DNA from: Nitratiruptor tergarcus DSM 16512
Lineage (GTDB): Bacteria > Campylobacterota > Campylobacteria > Campylobacterales > Nitratiruptoraceae
NCBI RefSeq assembly: GCF_027946175.1
Contig: NZ_AP026671.1
Span: forward strand, 496,001 to 560,000
Direction: 5' to 3'
Length of the DNA stretch: 64,000 nt
A model generated the notes under the pieces. The model ran no database searches. It worked only from the letters and a program-made list of their open reading frames with translations, and was not told where the DNA came from. The translations under genes and the position numbers were made by a program. The number at the start of each line of letters is the position of its first letter. Positions within the stretch are counted from its first letter, which is position 1. Below, in pieces: positions 34,428-43,816 of this stretch.

Positions 34428-36229
34428 GATTACTCTTTTTTCTCTTTTTTGCTTTTACGCTTTTTGCAGCAGATATCAATCAAACGTTGATTCAGGGAGA
34501 TAGCAAACTCTATAGGCAGTTGCTTCATCAAATTTCAAAGCAAAAGCAGACAAATGAAGATACGAGTTTGCAAAAAGCACTTTTGAAAAAGCTTATAGAC
34601 CTCGAAAAGAGCTCTACAAAAATAGAGCCACCAAAACTCTCACCTCCAAAAAAAGAGGACGATCTTTTAGAACTTATTGATACTTATATAGATGTAGCAA
34701 AGCAAAAGCAGGTACTTATACAAACTATTGATACATTAGATGATAAACTTGACGTTTTACGCTCACAAATTGCAGGTTTAGAAAATAATGCTACTAATCT
34801 TAATGATTTAGAGCTGCAGTATGCTTTTTATGTAAAAGAGAAAGCACTTGCACAAAAAAAAGTCGATATGCTCGCTAAAGTGCAAGAGAATATAAAGAAT
34901 TTACTCATTAGTGGTATTAAGTCTATTCCTGTGCAAAAGAGTGATAGTGCAAAGGCTTTGGCAGCGATAGAAGATGATCTTCAAAAAATTCGAAAAAAGA
35001 TACAGGCATATAATATAGAATTAGAAAGACGAGTTTTACTAGGGAAAGATACAAGTTATTTACAAAAACAGATAGATTTTTTACAAAAAAAAGAGAGGCA
35101 AAGTATTGAAAAAAAATTAGGGATACTTTTTCAAGAGTTTCTTTTTGCTTTGCAGACTAATAGAAGTAAGGATGTTTTTAGCATCAAAAAAGAGATAGTA
35201 AATCTTACTAAAAAGTACTACTCATCTGATTTAACAGATGCTATTAATGAGCTTCTTTCAACATTAGCTACTTCTATTTTAGGAAAAGCACAGACTCTTA
35301 AAGGTGCTACTTTTGAAGAGATAAAGACTCTACTCAAAACAATTTGGAAAAAAGCAAACGAGCCTCTTTTTACTATCAATGGTATTCCAATTAGCTCTTT
35401 TAAGCTCTTTTTGGCTCTTTTAATATTTATTTTGGGAATTTTTATTGGTACTTTATATAAAAGCTATGTAAAAAATATCTCATATCGCAGTAAAAATTTT
35501 ACACAGTCTACTGCTACGCTTTTAGCAAATCTTGGCTATTATCTCCTTGTCATTATTGCATTTTTCTTGGCTCTCAATACTTTAGGTATTGACCTCTCAT
35601 CTTTAGCCATTGTTGCTGGTGCTCTTTCAGTTGGTATCGGTTTTGGTCTACAAAATATTGTTTCCAATTTTGTCTCAGGTATTATTTTGATGTTTGAACG
35701 CAGTATCAAAATAGGAGACTATTTAGAGATTGATGGTGAATTACGAGGGCATGTGAGCGATATACGGATGCGTTCTACTACAATTACCACAAATGATAAT
35801 ATAGATGTCATTGTTCCAAATCAAGATCTCATTCAAAATAAAGTGATTAACTGGACAATGAACGATCGCATACGTCGTTTTCGTATTCCTTTTGGAGTAG
35901 CCTATGGAACAGATGTGCATAAAGTGATTAAAGTGGTGAGAGAAGCTGTTGAGAAGAGTGGTTTTACAGATATTTATAATACACCAAAACGGCATACCCG
36001 TGTTATTATGACAGGAATGGGCGATAGCAGTGTTGATTTTGAGCTTTTAGTTTGGGTGAAAGGAGAGGAGATTCTCTATCCCAAAAGAACTACTTCACGA
36101 TTTTTAATATTAATCTATGATGCATTATATGAGCATGGTATCGAAATACCATTCCCTCAGCGAGATATTCATATTCGTAAAGGGGATGCTCCTATTGAAG
36201 TTGTCCTTAAAAAAGAGGAAAACTCTTAA
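34424..36229 (+). CDS. MscS-family mechanosensitive channel with a long periplasmic coiled-coil domain
   Basis: 601 residues. Signal peptide [18 protein letters not shown], then about 280 residues of charged helical sequence likely to form a periplasmic coiled coil, a membrane helix near 325-345, another near 365, and the MscS pore region ([23 protein letters not shown], residues ~390-412) followed by the beta and alpha/beta vestibule domain ([14 protein letters not shown]). Longer than E. coli MscS (286) and similar in layout to MscK/YbiO-type channels. It opens on membrane tension to release solutes. It overlaps proA by 4 bp; proline is an osmolyte, so pairing may be meaningful but this is inference. 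Confidence 0.9.
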
Positions 36230-37011
36230 CCAAATTTTCCTGTGATGTAATCTTCGGAGAGTTTCTCTCTTGGATTGATGAAGAACTCTTCTGTCGCTCC
36301 AAGCTCTATGAGCTCTCCAAGATACATAAATGCAGTATAGTCACTGATACGAGCGGCTTGCTGCATATTGTGCGTAACTATGAGGATGGTCATCTGCTCT
36401 TTAAGTTCAATTACCAGCTCTTCAATGGCCTGAGTTGATATTGGATCGAGTGCACTAGTTGGCTCATCAAAGAGCAAAACTTTTGGTTTGACTGCTACTG
36501 CTCGAGCGATACAAAGACGCTGTTGCTGCCCGCCGCTTAAAGCCATAGCATCCTCTTTAAGTCTATCTTTTACTTCATTCCAGAGTGCTGCGCCCTTTAG
36601 TGCTTCTTCTACACGTCCGGCAAGCTCATTTTTGTTTTTAATACCCTGTAGTTTTAGCCCATAAGTAACGTTATCAAAAATACTCATCGGAAAAGGGGTT
36701 GGCTTTTGAAAAATCATTCCTATTTGGGTGCGTAAGTGAATAAGATCTATCTTTTTATCTAAAATATTGCGCCCCTCAAAGAGGATCTCTCCCTCATAGC
36801 GGTTACCGGGATAAAGATCATGGATACGGTTGAATGAGCGAAGGAGTGTTGATTTACCGCAACCACTAGGACCTATGAGAGCAGTGACTCTTTTTTTTGC
36901 AATAGGCATATTGATATTTTTCAAAGCTAGCTTATCGCTGCCAGCATAATAAAAAGAAAAATTTTTAACTTCTAACTCTTTTGGTTCAATTACCTCACAA
37001 ACAGTTGCCAT
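36226..37011 (-). CDS. pstB: Phosphate ABC transporter ATPase PstB
   Basis: ATPase of the high-affinity phosphate importer PstSCAB. Walker [21 protein letters not shown] near 42, PstB-typical [22 protein letters not shown] near 98, signature [19 protein letters not shown], Walker [17 protein letters not shown]-loop [14 protein letters not shown]. 261 residues. It is the last gene of pstCAB and overlaps the MscS gene end by 4 bp convergently. Confidence 0.97.
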
Positions 37012-37838
37012 TATTTTTTCCTTTTTCTAATTATAAAGCGTCCAATAAGATTAATAGCAAAAACAAACATACCGAGTAAAAATGCAGCTGCCCAGCCAAG
37101 ATTTATCCAAGTATTATACGGGCTTGTTGCAAAGTTAAACATCGTAACTGTCAAAGTTGGCATCGCTTCGTTGAGATTGGTTGTATAGAAGTTGTTGTTA
37201 AAAGATGTAAAGAGAAGTGGCGCTGTCTCACCTGCGATACGGGCAATTGAGAGTAAAATCCCCGTTACTATTCCTACCTTTGCTCCACGATAGACTATCT
37301 GCAAAATTACTTTGTATTTTGGAGCTCCTAAGGCGTATGCTGCCTCACGTAGAGACTCAGGAACAAGGCCCAGCATATCATCAGTAGTGCGCAGTACTAT
37401 TGGTATCATCATTATAGCCAAAGCAGCAGCTCCCGCCCATCCGCTAAAATGTCCCATAGGAGCTACTATAATTGCATATACAAACGCTCCAATAACAATA
37501 GAAGGCGCACTCATCATAATATCACTGATATCGCGGATAAACTCTGTGTAGCGGCTTTTTTTGCCAAATTCGCTGAGGTAAGTGCCTGCTAGAAGTCCCA
37601 AGGGTATTCCAATGGCACTTGCAACACCTACCAAAATAAGTTGACCTACTATTGCATTACGAAGTCCACCAGGGCTCATTGGTGGAGGTGTATCTTGGGT
37701 GAAGATATCAAGACTCATAGTTGAAATTCCTTTGGAAAAAAGCGTCCAAAGAATCCAAAAGAGAAAAAAAATTCCAAGAAGAGCACTTAGGGTTGAGAGA
37801 GTCATAACGATAAAGTTTATAATTTTTCGCCTTTTCAT
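37011..37838 (-). CDS. pstA: Phosphate ABC transporter permease PstA
   Basis: Inner-membrane permease with about six helices. The cytoplasmic EAA-type loop reads [21 protein letters not shown] near 160, matching Pst[31 protein letters not shown] near 55-85 and [20 protein letters not shown] near 192-210 are conserved. 275 residues. The stop shares a base with the pstB start and the start overlaps pstC by 4 bp. Confidence 0.96.
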
Positions 37839-38689
37839 CTGCTACCTCTTTTAAGAAAGTAAAATTTTGCAACCGCAATGACAATAAAACTGATAACAAA
37901 GAGGATAAGTGCTAAGTAAAAAAGACTTGCATAGTAGAGATCTCCATCAGCTTCTGTAAATTCATTGGCCAAAGTTACGGGAATGGATGTTGCAGGTTCA
38001 ATTAGGCTTTTTGGAATTTTATGAACGTTTCCCATTACAAAAGTTACCGCCATTGTCTCACCGATTGCTCGCCCTAGTGCTAAAATGATTGATCCAATAA
38101 CTCCGGCTTTCGCATAGGGCAACACTACATCTTTGATTACATCCCACTTAGTGGCTCCTAAAGCGTATGCAGACTCTTTAAGCACATCTGGTGTTGTATT
38201 CATACTGTCTCGCGTAATTGCCGCCATAAAGGGTAAAATCATGATTGCTAACACTATTCCGGCCGTTAGCAGTCCAAGTCCGCTTCCACCAAAGGCATCA
38301 CGGATAATAGGAGCAAAAAAGAAAAGACCCCACATTCCGTAAATTATAGATGGAATGGCTGCGAGCAATTCTATAGCTATGCTTGTAGGAGCTTTGAGGA
38401 ATTTTGGTGCTATTTCAGTGAGAAATATTGCCACACCAATAGCAACAGGTGTTGCTAAAGCCATAGCGATAATAGTAGAGACTACTGAGCCATAAATCGC
38501 AGGGGCTCCACCAAAAATCTCAAGATTTGGAGCCCATTTAGTGTTGAGTAAAAATTTGAGGCCAAAAGCTTCAATAGCAGGTTTGGCTTCTTGAAAGAGG
38601 ATCCAAAAAATAGCTACTAAGACTACAAGAACAAAAAATGCCGCAATTTTTGTTAAATTTTCAAATGTTAAATCAATGGCTTTTTGCAC
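37835..38689 (-). CDS. pstC: Phosphate ABC transporter permease PstC
   Basis: Membrane partner of PstA. Conserved segments are IYGSVVSTIIAMALATPVAIG near 65, IAIELLAAIPSIIYGMWGLFF near 105, EAA-loop LKESAYALGATKWDVIKDVV near 170, and LGRAIGETMAVTFVMGN near 205. 284 residues with six helices expected. It is the first gene of pstCAB, with its own Pho-type promoter at 38717-38749. Confidence 0.96.
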   Translation of the reverse strand: MQKAIDLTFENLTKIAAFFVLVVLVAIFWILFQEAKPAIEAFGLKFLLNTKWAPNLEIFGGAPAIYGSVVSTIIAMALATPVAIGVAIFLTEIAPKFLKAPTSIAIELLAAIPSIIYGMWGLFFFAPIIRDAFGGSGLGLLTAGIVLAIMILPFMAAITRDSMNTTPDVLKESAYALGATKWDVIKDVVLPYAKAGVIGSIILALGRAIGETMAVTFVMGNVHKIPKSLIEPATSIPVTLANEFTEADGDLYYASLFYLALILFVISFIVIAVAKFYFLKRGSR

Positions 38690-38716
38690 AGATGCCTCCG
38701 CTGAAAATTTGGATGT

Positions 38717-38749
38717 ATTATAAGAAAGCTAAATTACAAAACAGTTACA
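38717..38749 (-). promoter_or_regulatory. Pho-box promoter of pstCAB
   Basis: On the minus strand: TGTAAC (38749-38744), five bases, TGTAAT (38738-38733), ten bases, then TATAAT (38722-38717). Repeats 11 bp apart in place of the -35 element followed by ~10 bp to the -10 box is the PhoB-activated design known from E. coli. The pstC start is 28 bp downstream. The same layout occurs at pstS and phoU. Confidence 0.75.
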
Positions 38750-38785: not shown

Positions 38786-38811
38786 TGGTAAGAGGAGGAA
38801 GCCTCTTACCA
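38786..38811 (-). terminator. Hairpin after the pstS-porin operon
   Basis: TGGTAAGAGG (38786-38795) and CCTCTTACCA (38802-38811) form a perfect 10-bp stem with a 6-base loop covering the porin stop codon. On the minus strand a T-containing stretch (TACTATTTATT) follows. It would separate the pstS-porin transcript from pstCAB. The T-tract is imperfect. Confidence 0.6.
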
Positions 38812-39978
38812 ATGTACCTCAGCGGTGAGGAGGTAATCGATTTTGTTACTATTGTTAGGTTGATCATCTGTATATTTATCAATATTTGCAATAAATTTCA
38901 CATTTTTGTTATACGTGTATGCTACGCCCGCAATGATATTTTTCTTTGTGTAATCAATGTTGCTTGCAGGAGTTACTTTCCAGTGGTCATAGCGGGCTAA
39001 AATGCTCCAATCTTTGATTGGTCTAAACTCTCCATTTACGCTCCAACCTTTTCCATCATGAGGTCCGCCATTATTGTCATTTTTCATCAAATAACCACCT
39101 ATGAGAAACATCGGAGTATTATATACAGCGTGGAGTCCTGTAATGGTATCTTTGTTTTGTCCGTTATCTGTCCCAGTAAGATAGCGTCCAAAAAAAGAAA
39201 TATTGAGCCACTCATCACTTGTTGCATGCACGTGTTTTTTTCCAGTTCCAAGAGCTTCATATGTTAAGCGCCACTCAAAGCTTTGTCCAGTTCCGCTTTT
39301 AACGCTATGATATCCGCCGTTATTGAATAGTCCAATTTCGCTTGTAAAGTAGTCTGTTTTAGTTTTAAAGTTTATACCAGGAGAAGCTGAATTAATTACA
39401 TGCGCTGCATTGCGAGTCTCGACAAATGTTTCGGAAATACTTCTATAAAGCCATCCGTGATGCTCAGCATAATCTATCCAAGGTCTATGAACCTGACCAA
39501 ATTCAACGCCTGTAAAGGGGAGAATGTTGCTTAAATAAAGGTATGCATATTTAAGTCTTGCTACCCAGTCGCCGTTATTTTGCTGATGGGTATCGAGTGT
39601 AATTCTTGCATAATCGTGCTTATTCCAGTAGGCTTTTACTTGCAAGTAGTTTCTTCTTGTCTCAACAGTGCTCTTATCAGCTCTGTTTTTATCATCATAG
39701 TCTGTATAATGATATCCAAGGTAGTGGACTCCGTTTATTTTTAGCTTTGGAACTTTGCTAAAAACTTTTGTTCCCTTTATCTCTTTTGTCATCTCGTTGC
39801 GGATTTTTTGGTTTTGCTTAGCTATATCTTGAACACTTATAAAATCCCCAAGCTTTACTCTGTTTGGTCCAGGTTTTGTATAGATTGCACCGCTGTCTTT
39901 ATCCTGATAGAGAGTAATTGTTCCAGCCATTAAAGACGTTGCTACAAATGCCGATAAACTCAAAGCTATTTTTTTCAT
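38806..39978 (-). CDS. Outer-membrane porin, probably phosphate-selective type
   Basis: 390 residues with a signal peptide (MKKIALSLSAFVATSLMAG) and a sequence of alternating amphipathic strands typical of an outer-membrane barrel, ending in VHW, the aromatic C-terminal residue needed for BamA insertion. Basic residues are scattered through the loops. A sequence YAYLYLSNILPFTGVEFGQVHRPW near 175 resembles OprP/OprO-like phosphate porins. Start ATG at 39978 has AAAGGA seven bases upstream; ATG at 39993 would add MKGKN before the signal. It lies 28 bp after pstS and no promoter is visible between, so it is probably part of the Pho regulon. Confidence 0.8.
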   Translation of the reverse strand: MKKIALSLSAFVATSLMAGTITLYQDKDSGAIYTKPGPNRVKLGDFISVQDIAKQNQKIRNEMTKEIKGTKVFSKVPKLKINGVHYLGYHYTDYDDKNRADKSTVETRRNYLQVKAYWNKHDYARITLDTHQQNNGDWVARLKYAYLYLSNILPFTGVEFGQVHRPWIDYAEHHGWLYRSISETFVETRNAAHVINSASPGINFKTKTDYFTSEIGLFNNGGYHSVKSGTGQSFEWRLTYEALGTGKKHVHATSDEWLNISFFGRYLTGTDNGQNKDTITGLHAVYNTPMFLIGGYLMKNDNNGGPHDGKGWSVNGEFRPIKDWSILARYDHWKVTPASNIDYTKKNIIAGVAYTYNKNVKFIANIDKYTDDQPNNSNKIDYLLTAEVHW

Positions 39979-40006
39979 ATTTTTTCCTTTCATTCAAGTT
40001 TATATT

Positions 40007-41017
40007 TTATTTGCTCTTGGGAGCAATTTTGTGCATTTCCCAATATTTTCTGATGATATCTTTCGTGGATGCCGGAAGCGGAATATATCCCAATCTTTTT
40101 GCCTCTTCATCTCCGTTTCTAAAAGCCCAGTCAAAGAAAGCCGTTACTTTTTTGTTTGTTTTGGTTTTTTCCCGTGGAAGCAAAATGAAAGTCCCAGCTA
40201 CTATTGGATAGCTGTTATCACCTGGTTGCAGTGCCAAGACTTGGTAAAAGTGGTTTTTTGGACTCCATTTTGCATGAGAAGCTGCTGCTTGGAAATTTTT
40301 TTCAGTCGGTGCTACCCATTTGCCGCTTACCGTTTGCAAAGTGGCAGCTTTGAAGTTGTTCTGTTTTTTGTAGGCATACTCTACATAGCCGATACTGTAA
40401 GGGGTTTGTTTTAAAAGGTTTGATACTCCCTCATTTCCTTTGCCGCCTAGCCCTACAGGCCAGTCTACTGCTTTTCCTGTTCCTACATTGCTTGCCCAAT
40501 CTTTGCTAATATGTGTAAGAAAATAGGTAAAATTAAAAGTCGTTCCGCTGCCATCGCTTCTATGAATAACAACGATTTTTTTATGAGGAAGTTTCACACC
40601 TGGATTATCTTCGGCAATTGCTTTATCATCCCAGTATTTTATTTTGCCAAGAAAAATATCGGCTACATCTTTGTTTTCAAGTTTAAGATTGTCTGGAATA
40701 TTTGGAACATTATAAGCTACTACGATACTTCCAATGACAGCCGGAAATTGGTAGAGTCTTTTTTTATCAAGCTGTTTTGGTTTGAGAGGCTTATCGCTTG
40801 CTCCAAAATCAACAATTCTAGCACTAATTTGTTTAATACCGCCCCCACTTCCAATAGATTGATAGTTTATTTGATTTCCTGTTACCTTATAGTAATTATA
40901 TGCCCATGCATAGTAAAGTGGAGCTGGAAACGTGGCACCTGCTCCGTTAATACGCTCAGCAAAGCTGCTTGTAGCGATTGCCGCTACTGCAAGAGCTGTT
41001 ATTGCAATGCTTCTCAT
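40007..41017 (-). CDS. pstS: Phosphate ABC transporter substrate-binding protein PstS
   Basis: Periplasmic phosphate receptor. Signal peptide MRSIAITALAVAAIATSSFA, then INGAGATFPAPLYYAW and IGSGGGIKQISARIVDFGASDKPL, the first phosphate-binding loop; RSDGSGTTFNFTYFL near 153 is the second; SIGYVEYAYKKQN near 205 is typical. Length 336. AAAGGGAG precedes the ATG at 41017. Promoter is the Pho-type site at 41047-41100. Separated from pstCAB by the porin gene. Confidence 0.96.
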   Translation of the reverse strand: MRSIAITALAVAAIATSSFAERINGAGATFPAPLYYAWAYNYYKVTGNQINYQSIGSGGGIKQISARIVDFGASDKPLKPKQLDKKRLYQFPAVIGSIVVAYNVPNIPDNLKLENKDVADIFLGKIKYWDDKAIAEDNPGVKLPHKKIVVIHRSDGSGTTFNFTYFLTHISKDWASNVGTGKAVDWPVGLGGKGNEGVSNLLKQTPYSIGYVEYAYKKQNNFKAATLQTVSGKWVAPTEKNFQAAASHAKWSPKNHFYQVLALQPGDNSYPIVAGTFILLPREKTKTNKKVTAFFDWAFRNGDEEAKRLGYIPLPASTKDIIRKYWEMHKIAPKSK

Positions 41018-41046
41018 TCATTCTCCCTTTTGATTTTGACATTGAA

Positions 41047-41100
41047 AGTATAAAAAGTAAAAATGACAAATTGGTTACAAGGTGTAACTGTTTTGTTACA
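41047..41100 (-). promoter_or_regulatory. Pho-box promoter of pstS
   Basis: On the minus strand: TGTAAC (41100-41095), a second TGTAAC (41079-41074) 21 bp on, TGTCAT (41068-41063) 11 bp after that, ten bases, then TATACT (41052-41047). The last two repeats and -10 have exactly the geometry of the pstC promoter. The pstS start is 30 bp downstream. Overlaps the divergent phoU site. Confidence 0.8.
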
Positions 41101-41115
41101 ATTGTGCATTATAAT
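41083..41115 (+). promoter_or_regulatory. Pho-box promoter of phoU-phoB-phoR
   Basis: On the plus strand: TGTAAC (41083-41088), five bases, TGTTAC (41094-41099), ten bases, then TATAAT (41110-41115). The layout is the same as on the pstS side and interlocks with it: GTTACA-AGG-TGTAAC (41074-41088) is a perfect inverted repeat contributing half-sites to both strands. Implies positive autoregulation of the two-component system. Confidence 0.75.
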
Positions 41116-41145
41116 GCCTAAAAAACTAGAATGAGGGTAAAACGG

Positions 41146-41805
41146 ATGCTTACAACCTATCAGCAAAGAGTAAAAAAACTCAATAGTATGGTTCAAGATG
41201 CTACAAAAAAGATTGTAGCAGCCCACAAAGTAGCACTCAGCGCTTTTAAAAACAAAGATTTGGATGAGTTTGAAGCGGTTATTGAGTTAGTGAAAACAAT
41301 GGATGAGGAGGCAAGAGATATAGATAATGATGTAGTAAAAATCATTGCTCTTTTTGGTCCGGAGGCGAGTGAATTAAGAGAGCTAATTGCTTATATCAAA
41401 CTCACTAATGAAATTGTACGAATTGGTGATTATGCCAAAACTTATGCCAAAACTATGAAGCGCCATATTGCAAATGAGATCGATTTTTCAAAACTTGATG
41501 AGTATGTTGTTCAACTGCATGAGACTGCTATTAAGGCAATAGAGTTTGCATTAGATATTATTGAAAGCGAAGATGGAGAGGAGCTTTATCGCAAAACGAT
41601 GGTAGAAGAGAGTAAAACGGATGAGATATTTAAGCTTTTTGAAAAAGAGCTTCTCTCAGATCTTTGTGAAGATAGCGAGAAAATTGCAGATTATCTCAAT
41701 GTGCTCTCTACCGCAAGAAAAATTGAGCGCACGGCAGACAGAGCCGTTGAAATTGCAAAATTGCTGCTATTTGCCAAAAAAGGCGGAAAATTGGAGAGCT
41801 TTTAA
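41146..41805 (+). CDS. phoU: Phosphate signalling complex protein PhoU
   Basis: All-helical protein of about 219 residues with two PhoU-type three-helix bundles; metal-coordinating acidic motifs appear as EDxxxD-like stretches (DEEARDIDNDVVKI near 60 and ESKTDEIFKLFEKELL near 165). It links Pst transport state to the sensor kinase. ATG at 41146 has GAGGG (41133-41137) eight bases upstream; ATG at 41131 lacks a good site. It leads a phoU-phoB-phoR operon, its stop overlapping the phoB start. Confidence 0.9.
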   Translation: MLTTYQQRVKKLNSMVQDATKKIVAAHKVALSAFKNKDLDEFEAVIELVKTMDEEARDIDNDVVKIIALFGPEASELRELIAYIKLTNEIVRIGDYAKTYAKTMKRHIANEIDFSKLDEYVVQLHETAIKAIEFALDIIESEDGEELYRKTMVEESKTDEIFKLFEKELLSDLCEDSEKIADYLNVLSTARKIERTADRAVEIAKLLLFAKKGGKLESF

Positions 41806-42473
41806 TGGCAAAACCTTTAATTGTCGTTATTGAAGACAAAGAAGATTTGCTAGAGCTTTTAGAGTTTCGTCTTTCTAAAGAATATGAAGTAGAGGGTTTT
41901 TTATCTACAAAAAATGTAGAGCACTTTTTAGAAGAGGAAGATGTAGCCTTGATGCTAGTTGATAGAAATTTACCGGGAGTTGAGGGGAGCGAGTTTGTAA
42001 AAAATCTTCGCAATAGAGGATATGACATTCCCGTTATTTTTCTTACGGCAAAAGATAGTGAGAGTGATATAGAAATGGGATTTATGCGTGGGGGAGATGA
42101 TTATATTACAAAACCTTTTAATTTTAATGAGCTTTTGCTAAGAATCCAAGCAGTCCTTCGCAGAAGCCGTCCGGATCTCTTTGCTTCTAATTTAAAATAT
42201 AGAGATATTGAGCTTCATCCCTCTTCGCACAAATGTTTTATTGAAGGCAAAGAGGTGCAGCTAACAAAACTTGAATTTGAGCTTTTGAGTGAGTTTTTAA
42301 AAAATAGAGGTCAAGTACTCAGCAGAGATTATCTCTTGGAGCATGTTTGGAGGGATATTAAACAAGAGCGCAGTGTCAATGTAGCAATCAAGCGTCTTAA
42401 AGAAAAGATTGATCCAAAAAAAGAGAAAAACTACATCGAAGCGGTGCGGGGAGTTGGATATAAGCTATGCTAA
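41805..42473 (+). CDS. phoB: OmpR-family response regulator PhoB
   Basis: Receiver domain with acidic pocket ED at 10-11 and phosphoacceptor D53 (LVDRNLPG), conserved Thr in FLTAKD and Lys in YITKPFNFNE; C-terminal winged helix (LTKLEFELLSEFLKNRGQVLS then RSVNVAIKRLKEKI). 222 residues. Sits between phoU and phoR in the same operon next to pst and three Pho-type boxes, so PhoB is a safe name functionally, though the phosphate regulator of Campylobacter (PhosR) may be distinct. Overlaps phoR by 7 bp. Confidence 0.9.
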   Translation: MAKPLIVVIEDKEDLLELLEFRLSKEYEVEGFLSTKNVEHFLEEEDVALMLVDRNLPGVEGSEFVKNLRNRGYDIPVIFLTAKDSESDIEMGFMRGGDDYITKPFNFNELLLRIQAVLRRSRPDLFASNLKYRDIELHPSSHKCFIEGKEVQLTKLEFELLSEFLKNRGQVLSRDYLLEHVWRDIKQERSVNVAIKRLKEKIDPKKEKNYIEAVRGVGYKLC

Positions 42474-43816
42474 GACTTCATCAGATCTTTTTTTCCCATC
42501 TTTTGGCGCTTTTGGGCGTTTTATTTGTTTTGGTAAGTCTTTTTAGTTACTATGGAATCCGCCAGATAGAGATTGATAACTTTACAAATGAGCTTAAAAC
42601 TATTCTAAAAATTTTAGATGAAAAGATAGATGTTAAAAAGATTGATAAAAAAGTGCATGCAAGGGTTACTCTCATTGATAGCAGTGGCAAAGTGCTTGCA
42701 GAGAGCCGTTTTGATCCACAGGGTATGGAAAATCACCTTAACCGCCCTGAAATCAAAGAGGCAATGAAAAAAGGGTGGGGAAGGAGCGTAAGGTATTCAG
42801 CTACTTTGCACCAAGACTTTTTGTATGTAGCCAAGAGGCTTGGTGATGGAAAATTTTTGCGTCTTGCCAAACCGCTAAAAGAGATAAATGAGCATTTTTT
42901 AGCTCTTTGGATCCGTTTTATGGCTATATTTGCCCTTTTTATCTTTATAGCTTTGTTGGTTTCATTCTTTTTAAGCAAAAAAATTAAAGCTGAAGTGCAA
43001 AAGATTTTAGACTATGTAGATGCTCTGTGGCACAAAGAGTATGAGAAGAGTTTAAAAGTCTCTTTTGCCAAAGAGTTTGAGCTTTTATCAAAGCATTTGC
43101 AAAAGCTTGCAAAGAGGCTTCAAAAAAGGGAAGCAAAAAAGGAGCGCTATACGCAAAAAATCAAGCAGATCTCAAAACAGCGTACAGAGCTTATTAGTGC
43201 AATTAGCCATGAATTTAAAAATCCTGTTGCCGTTATAGATGGATATGCTCAGACTCTTTTGGAAGAGGAGGTTCCGCAGAAACTGCAAAAGAGATTTATT
43301 GAAAAGATTTACAATGCAAGCCAGAAAATTAGCTATATGATTGATAGATTGGCACTGGCTATGAAGTTTGAAAGCGGCTCCTTGCAGCCTCATAAAGAGC
43401 ATTTTGATATGTGTGAAGCTTTGCAAAAGGCGGTTGAATTTATTCATCAGCGCTATAAAAATAGAGAAATTCAGGTAGAGTGCAAGCCTTTTATAGTTTA
43501 TGCAGATAAATATATGATAGAAACCGTGCTTTTTAATCTTTTGGATAATGCTTTGAAATATTCTGAGCTTGCAGTCGTGGTGCGTATTAAAGATGATTAT
43601 TTGGAGGTCATAGATAGAGGAATTGGAATAAAGGAAAAGGAGATAAAGAAACTTACTAAAAAGTTTTACAGAGTGCGTCAAAGTTGGGATAACTCCATGG
43701 GACTTGGGCTTTATATTACGGAGTATATTTTACAGCTTCATCAGACTAAGCTGGAGATAGAGAGCGAATATGGCAAAGGATCAGTTTTTCGATTTTCTTT
43801 AAAACCTTTGCAATAA
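42467..43816 (+). CDS. phoR: Sensor histidine kinase, phosphate-responsive (PhoR-like)
   Basis: 449 residues: membrane helix near 8-28, a short periplasmic region of ~110 residues (LIDSSGKVLAESRFD), second helix near 148-168 (FMAIFALFIFIALLVSFFL), then a HAMP-like linker, the phosphoacceptor box SHEFKNPVAVIDGYAQ near 247, N box LLDNALKYS, G1 RGIGIKEKE and G2 MGLGLYIT. Unlike E. coli PhoR it has a real periplasmic domain and no obvious PAS domain. The pairing with phoU/phoB supports phosphate sensing. Confidence 0.85.
   Translation: MLRLHQIFFSHLLALLGVLFVLVSLFSYYGIRQIEIDNFTNELKTILKILDEKIDVKKIDKKVHARVTLIDSSGKVLAESRFDPQGMENHLNRPEIKEAMKKGWGRSVRYSATLHQDFLYVAKRLGDGKFLRLAKPLKEINEHFLALWIRFMAIFALFIFIALLVSFFLSKKIKAEVQKILDYVDALWHKEYEKSLKVSFAKEFELLSKHLQKLAKRLQKREAKKERYTQKIKQISKQRTELISAISHEFKNPVAVIDGYAQTLLEEEVPQKLQKRFIEKIYNASQKISYMIDRLALAMKFESGSLQPHKEHFDMCEALQKAVEFIHQRYKNREIQVECKPFIVYADKYMIETVLFNLLDNALKYSELAVVVRIKDDYLEVIDRGIGIKEKEIKKLTKKFYRVRQSWDNSMGLGLYITEYILQLHQTKLEIESEYGKGSVFRFSLKPLQ

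Follow-up and report, generated by a model that had tools for sequence, protein, structure and literature searches.

The window, a 64,000-nucleotide stretch of Nitratiruptor tergarcus DSM 16512, contains a 128-bp spacer from which pstS and a phoU-phoB-phoR operon are read in opposite directions (Table 1). On either strand of this spacer, two TGTNAY half-sites with an 11-bp period are followed by 10 bp and then by a -10 hexamer. The two 22-bp Pho boxes so placed abut, with 1 bp between them and no overlap. The preliminary description of this segment had located the half-sites, 10-bp spacers and -10 boxes of both strands correctly to the base, and the GTTACA-AGG-TGTAAC palindrome that it reported is present, made up of the inner half-site of either box. 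Its further view that the two sets overlap and are interlocked does not hold, as both the cores and the full boxes are adjacent yet separate, and the transcription starts that it set at 41052 and 41110 fall on the first base of each -10 hexamer rather than at the expected start positions. With a gap as short as 3 bp the palindrome arises as a by-product, and it is not conserved as such; we rejected it as a conserved element, the gap being variable in relatives and the palindrome perfect only at the shortest gap.

Table 1. Genes and promoter features around the pstS/phoU spacer (positions are those of the window)
Feature	Position	Strand	Details
pstC, pstA, pstB	36226..38689	-	ORFs 38689-37835, 37838-37011 and 37011-36226; same order in relatives
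Third Pho promoter, before pstC	38716..38749	-	TGTAAC-N5-TGTAAT-N10-TATAAT; strict pattern, and second in the genome with model R1
Terminator-like hairpin, outer-membrane gene/pstC junction	38786..38811	-	10-bp stem
Putative outer-membrane protein gene	38806..39993	-	Co-oriented, 13 bp past pstS; adjoins pstS in relatives too
pstS, phosphate-binding protein	40007..41017	-	NCBIfam NF008171 375 bits, TIGR00975 369 bits, both over cut-off; gene start 41017
pstS -10 box TATACT	41047..41052	-	Exactly 10 bp off the Pho box core; predicted start ~41040 (41039-41041)
pstS-side 10-bp spacer, Pho box core to -10	41062-41053	-	
pstS-side 22-bp Pho box (TTGTAACCAAT TTGTCATTTTT)	41059..41080	-	Half-sites TGTAAC 41079-41074, TGTCAT 41068-41063
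pstS-side 17-bp core	41063-41079	-	
Palindrome GTTACA-AGG-TGTAAC	41074..41088	.	Inner half-sites of both boxes
phoU-side 22-bp Pho box (GTGTAACTGTT TTGTTACAATT)	41082..41103	+	Half-sites TGTAAC 41083-41088, TGTTAC 41094-41099
phoU-side 17-bp core	41083-41099	+	
phoU-side 10-bp spacer, Pho box core to -10	41100-41109	+	
phoU -10 box TATAAT	41110..41115	+	10 bp off the Pho box core; predicted start ~41122 (41121-41123)
phoU, first in the divergent operon	41146..41805	+	Pfam PF01895 87.5 bits; TIGR02135 108.8 bits, under its cut-off of 130; gene start 41146
phoB, response regulator	41805..42473	+	Overlaps phoU stop (41805); best NCBIfam model PhoB, 178 bits against a cut-off of 296
phoR, sensor histidine kinase	42467..43816	+	Overlaps phoB stop (42467-42473); best NCBIfam model phoR_proteo, 150 bits against a cut-off of 334

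Because phoU overlaps phoB and phoB overlaps phoR, the plus-strand promoter is expected to read all three genes. Pfam domains identify a regulator with receiver and winged-helix domains and a histidine kinase next to phoU and pst, in a conserved gene order; the regulator shares 36% identity with E. coli PhoB along its length, and the kinase core resembles that of E. coli PhoR. Both proteins fall short of the NCBIfam equivalog cut-offs, though the PhoB and PhoR models score best, and we therefore describe the regulator as PhoB-like and working like PhoB, and do not claim orthology by the curated standard. PhoU itself was not detected in over half of the genomes of the same genus (nine genomes), some of which are nearly complete.

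On the other side, pstS is followed by a putative outer-membrane protein gene, for which NCBIfam and Pfam searches returned no family match, and then by pstCAB with a Pho promoter of its own. This third site lies ~28 bp ahead of the pstC start codon and is conserved in the family, at least seven relatives having it in front of their pstC. The hairpin at the junction is weak evidence alone, such sites being no commoner than in shuffles; together with the separate pstC promoter, it suggests that pstS and the outer-membrane gene may be separable in expression level from the transporter genes. In this arrangement, with the pstC promoter following the terminator-like hairpin, pstS with the outer-membrane gene and pstCAB appear as separate Pho units.

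Chance is a poor explanation of the layout: in base shuffles of the 128-bp spacer, the perfect plus-strand structure arose at a frequency of 3.5e-5, and the structure on both strands in 0 of 200,000. A search of all 1.94 Mb of the genome with the strict pattern gives five matches, against one for its reversed control, and three of the five are those at pstS, phoU and pstC; the remaining two, one within a gene and one facing away from pckA, are likely due to chance. The genome matches at 502760 and 1046407 (both inside coding regions) and at 1596848 (facing away from pckA) were set aside as such. This specificity belongs to the strict form with its -10 box, since a loose TGTAAC-N5-TGTNAC pattern allowing two mismatches is no commoner than its reversed control. 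The same three sites emerge from a sequence-only motif model, R1, built from 63 boxes that all come from other genomes: its best match genome-wide is the phoU-side box (21.2 bits, E 8.5e-4), followed in second place by the pstC box (19.3 bits), while the pstS-side box, the weakest of the three, is sixth (14.8 bits), and within the window they take the first, second and third places, respectively.

For comparison, PhoU/PhoB relatives were taken from contigs of Sulfuricurvum, Sulfurimonas and unclassified Campylobacterales, and further relatives from genomes of Campylobacterales in partly overlapping samples of 100 and 399. Retention of the repeats in orthologous spacers had been proposed as the test of the preliminary description; when run, it found the both-strand structure in 35 of 35 divergent pstS/phoU spacers, a set that includes the one in the window, with a mean of 12.4 of 13 positions kept. 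In the divergent spacers of relatives, period 11 stands far above periods 8-10 and 12-14, and a 10-bp spacer to the -10 box outranks every other value from 4 to 17, the exception being one plus-strand box that by eye has a 9-bp spacer. In the second sample the divergent loci again carry both sites, and a natural negative control is provided by phoU genes that are preceded by pstB inside a pst operon, where the sites are absent and scores are at background. The resulting consensus across Campylobacterota is TTGTWAYCNNNTTGTWAY-N10-TANAAT, in which TGT and the A at position 5 are kept and position 4 is mostly A or T, not C, one half-site here being TGTCAT. R1 has matches in 10 of 10 genomes searched within the family.

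The distance between the two boxes varies in steps. In this genome the gap between the inner half-sites is 3 bp; of six same-genus relatives, five have a gap of 4 bp and one a gap of 15. Most other families show 14-16 bp and some 24-25, a value of 36 occurs once, and 20, 27, 28-30 and 287 are exceptions. The values cluster at 4, 15, 25 and 36 bp, which, with 6 bp added, places half-site centres ~10, 21, 31 and 42 bp apart, that is, at whole turns of the helix; loci with gaps of 10, 20, 22, 27 and 28-30 are out of phase. A gene-blind scan for divergent double boxes in 399 genomes returned additional loci, their gaps being 4, 15 and 24-26, whereas the reversed control gave zero in every genome save one; the neighbours of such double boxes are pstS, porin-like genes, phoB, PhoX, glycerophosphodiester phosphodiesterase (GDPD) and an OlsF-type acyltransferase (ornithine-lipid synthase). 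With residual kinship ignored, 19 gap values of the pstS/phoU type give R 0.75 at 10.5 bp (p ~5e-5 against uniform gaps). Twelve non-orthologous Pho loci, again ignoring residual kinship, give R 0.66 (p ~0.005 against uniform gaps) at nearly the same phase, and the best period of the pooled set is 10.75 bp. For these statistics, within-genus repeats were collapsed by hand and the Pho loci were chosen by our own judgement. Taken alone, the 12 other Pho loci fit slightly better at 5.5 bp. A helical spacing rule for divergent Pho boxes is therefore likely but not proven, given p-values that ignore kinship, a collapsing of repeats and a choice of loci made by judgement, and the 5.5-bp fit of the 12 loci.

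The conserved spacing suggests that PhoB binds on the same face of the DNA at both boxes. Campylobacterota may keep their divergent Pho boxes in helical register because opposed PhoB dimers on one face form a cooperative two-way switch that ties uptake to the regulator genes; we advance this tentatively, putting it somewhat below an even chance. For the spacing, though not for the identity of the Pho boxes, there is a rival account, which we consider to have close to an even chance: the periodicity could stem from duplication and deletion of 11-bp units together with common descent, and not from selection for same-face binding. The steps equal the repeat length, many gap values are inherited and a gap of ~15 is probably ancestral, all as this account would have it; yet the same phase recurs at the 12 non-orthologous divergent Pho loci, and gaps of 14-16 bp carry no excess of half-site letters over shuffles. 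A hidden middle half-site in these 15-bp gaps was looked for and rejected, none being seen and the letters being no more frequent than in shuffles (observed mean 3.5 against 3.55).

The preliminary description had also raised the possibility of a single PhoB array that fires both ways or is competed for. In such a scheme, four interlocked half-sites would be common to the two promoters; they do lie 11, 9 and 11 bp apart here, the inner pair is a perfect palindrome, and the plus box, when read on the minus strand, scores 9 of 10. That reading is possible, if less good, because the half-site TGTNACA is nearly palindromic, and with R1 it reaches only 5.9 bits against 21.2 for the correct one. Moreover, each promoter has a complete box of its own, the gap ranges from 3 to 36 bp (287 once) with neither box lost, and the 14-16-bp gaps hold no additional half-site. 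We consider a shared array improbable and rejected it, as the boxes are distinct and lie at varying distances from each other. It is more improbable still that the repeats are bound by another OmpR-family response regulator and not by the neighbouring PhoB: many regulators of that family bind 10-11-bp direct repeats and the PhoB here lies under its equivalog cut-off, but the sites track pst, pho and other phosphate genes across the order in the very layout of E. coli PhoB promoters.

We interpret the segment, with high confidence, as a pair of back-to-back PhoB-activated promoters, with pstS transcribed one way, an autogenous phoU-phoB-phoR operon the other and a third box serving pstCAB. Its assignment as a classical PhoB-type pair follows from the conservation in all 35 spacers, the absence of the sites inside pst operons and the geometry shared with E. 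coli phoB and pstS. Two proposals of the preliminary description are supported: that there is one 11-bp direct-repeat box of PhoB type per direction, which is the E. coli-like placement, and that the PhoB/PhoR genes would stand under their own control. The analysis itself shows the positions of the sites, their conservation, their specificity within the genome and the periodicity of the spacing; we infer PhoB binding, activation, autoregulation and cooperativity in the following form. Under phosphate limitation PhoR would phosphorylate PhoB, and a PhoB dimer would bind each 22-bp Pho box head-to-tail; the box would take the place of a -35 element, with PhoB recruiting RNA polymerase, in the outward direction, to a -10 box situated 10 bp downstream. 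The minus box would drive pstS and the outer-membrane gene, the plus box phoU-phoB-phoR, giving positive autoregulation, and the third box pstCAB. The two boxes have no half-site in common and would lie on the same helix face, their half-site centres being separated by about a whole number of turns, such that two PhoB dimers may bind cooperatively. Competition between the promoters is not required, as the predicted starts are ~82 bp apart and leave room for two polymerases back to back.

In open literature that we searched, no described Pho regulon was found for environmental Campylobacterota, and the tested consensus makes regulon prediction possible there; the candidates so far include pst, phoX, glycerophosphodiester phosphodiesterase and porin-like genes as well as ornithine-lipid synthesis. 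Next to double Pho boxes at five loci, L101, L088, L094, L097 (divergent to phoU) and L233, there is an OlsF-like acyltransferase (345-390 bits with the bifunctional ornithine lipid synthase model in the two scanned), which suggests that phosphate-free lipid synthesis falls within the Pho regulon of several Campylobacterota. In family f10, a PhoX-like alkaline phosphatase adjoins a double Pho box whose gap is 15 bp; at another locus (L230), a box pair with an equal gap lies next to a partly masked gene. In one same-genus relative, a PiT-like phosphate permease is preceded by a strong Pho box (25 bits; G015:C150:2013-2046), and in two species of the genus an alpha-glucan phosphorylase-like gene (DUF3417 N-terminus), divergent from purH, has a Pho-box-like promoter (at G000:C1:632006-632037 and in G004). 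The promoter of a gene resembling a succinate dehydrogenase/fumarate reductase iron-sulfur protein is conserved in three species with one clear half-site, and its control by Pho is uncertain. Some double-box matches in family f9 have gaps of 0, 11 or 22 and TTACATGT cores; this may be a different array, belonging to another regulator. The helical spacing rule, if true, would offer a simple testable case of cooperation between opposed PhoB dimers.

PHO boxes of other bacteria consist of direct-repeat units of 11 nt, to which PhoB effector domains bind in tandem (PMC4415409), the same units as those seen here; no description of a divergent, phased pair was found in open literature searched. Within the same phylum, the C. 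jejuni PhosS/PhosR phosphate two-component system regulates pst (PMC3197622; Wosten et al. 2006, pmid 16956379, as cited in PMC4415409). That system has been described as non-classical. In searches that covered 21 genomes, a presumed PhosR consensus has no match in this genome and one across 10 relatives from two families, and a looser form of it matches once across 10 genomes belonging to a third. The PhosR box is reportedly an 11-bp direct repeat too, with letters different from those of the Pho box here, so the two boxes may differ in letters and not in kind. In E. coli the sequence is TTTCAT-N5-TGTCAT-N10-CATAAT at the phoB promoter and TTACAT-N5-TGTCAC-N10-TATTTT at the pstS promoter, a layout equal to that found here but with different letters at position 4. 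The Campylobacterota model does not recognise these boxes when they are scored with it, and the letters thus differ (TGTWAY here, TGTCAT in E. coli). In E. coli pstS the downstream PhoB box lies 10 bp from the -10 box, as here, but two tandem boxes serve one direction instead of one box each, and pstSCAB-phoU form a single operon. At E. coli phoB there is no divergent pstS sharing the region and the operon is without phoU, whereas the promoter itself has the same 11-bp direct repeat, 10 bp and -10 box as at this locus, and phoBR is autoregulated.
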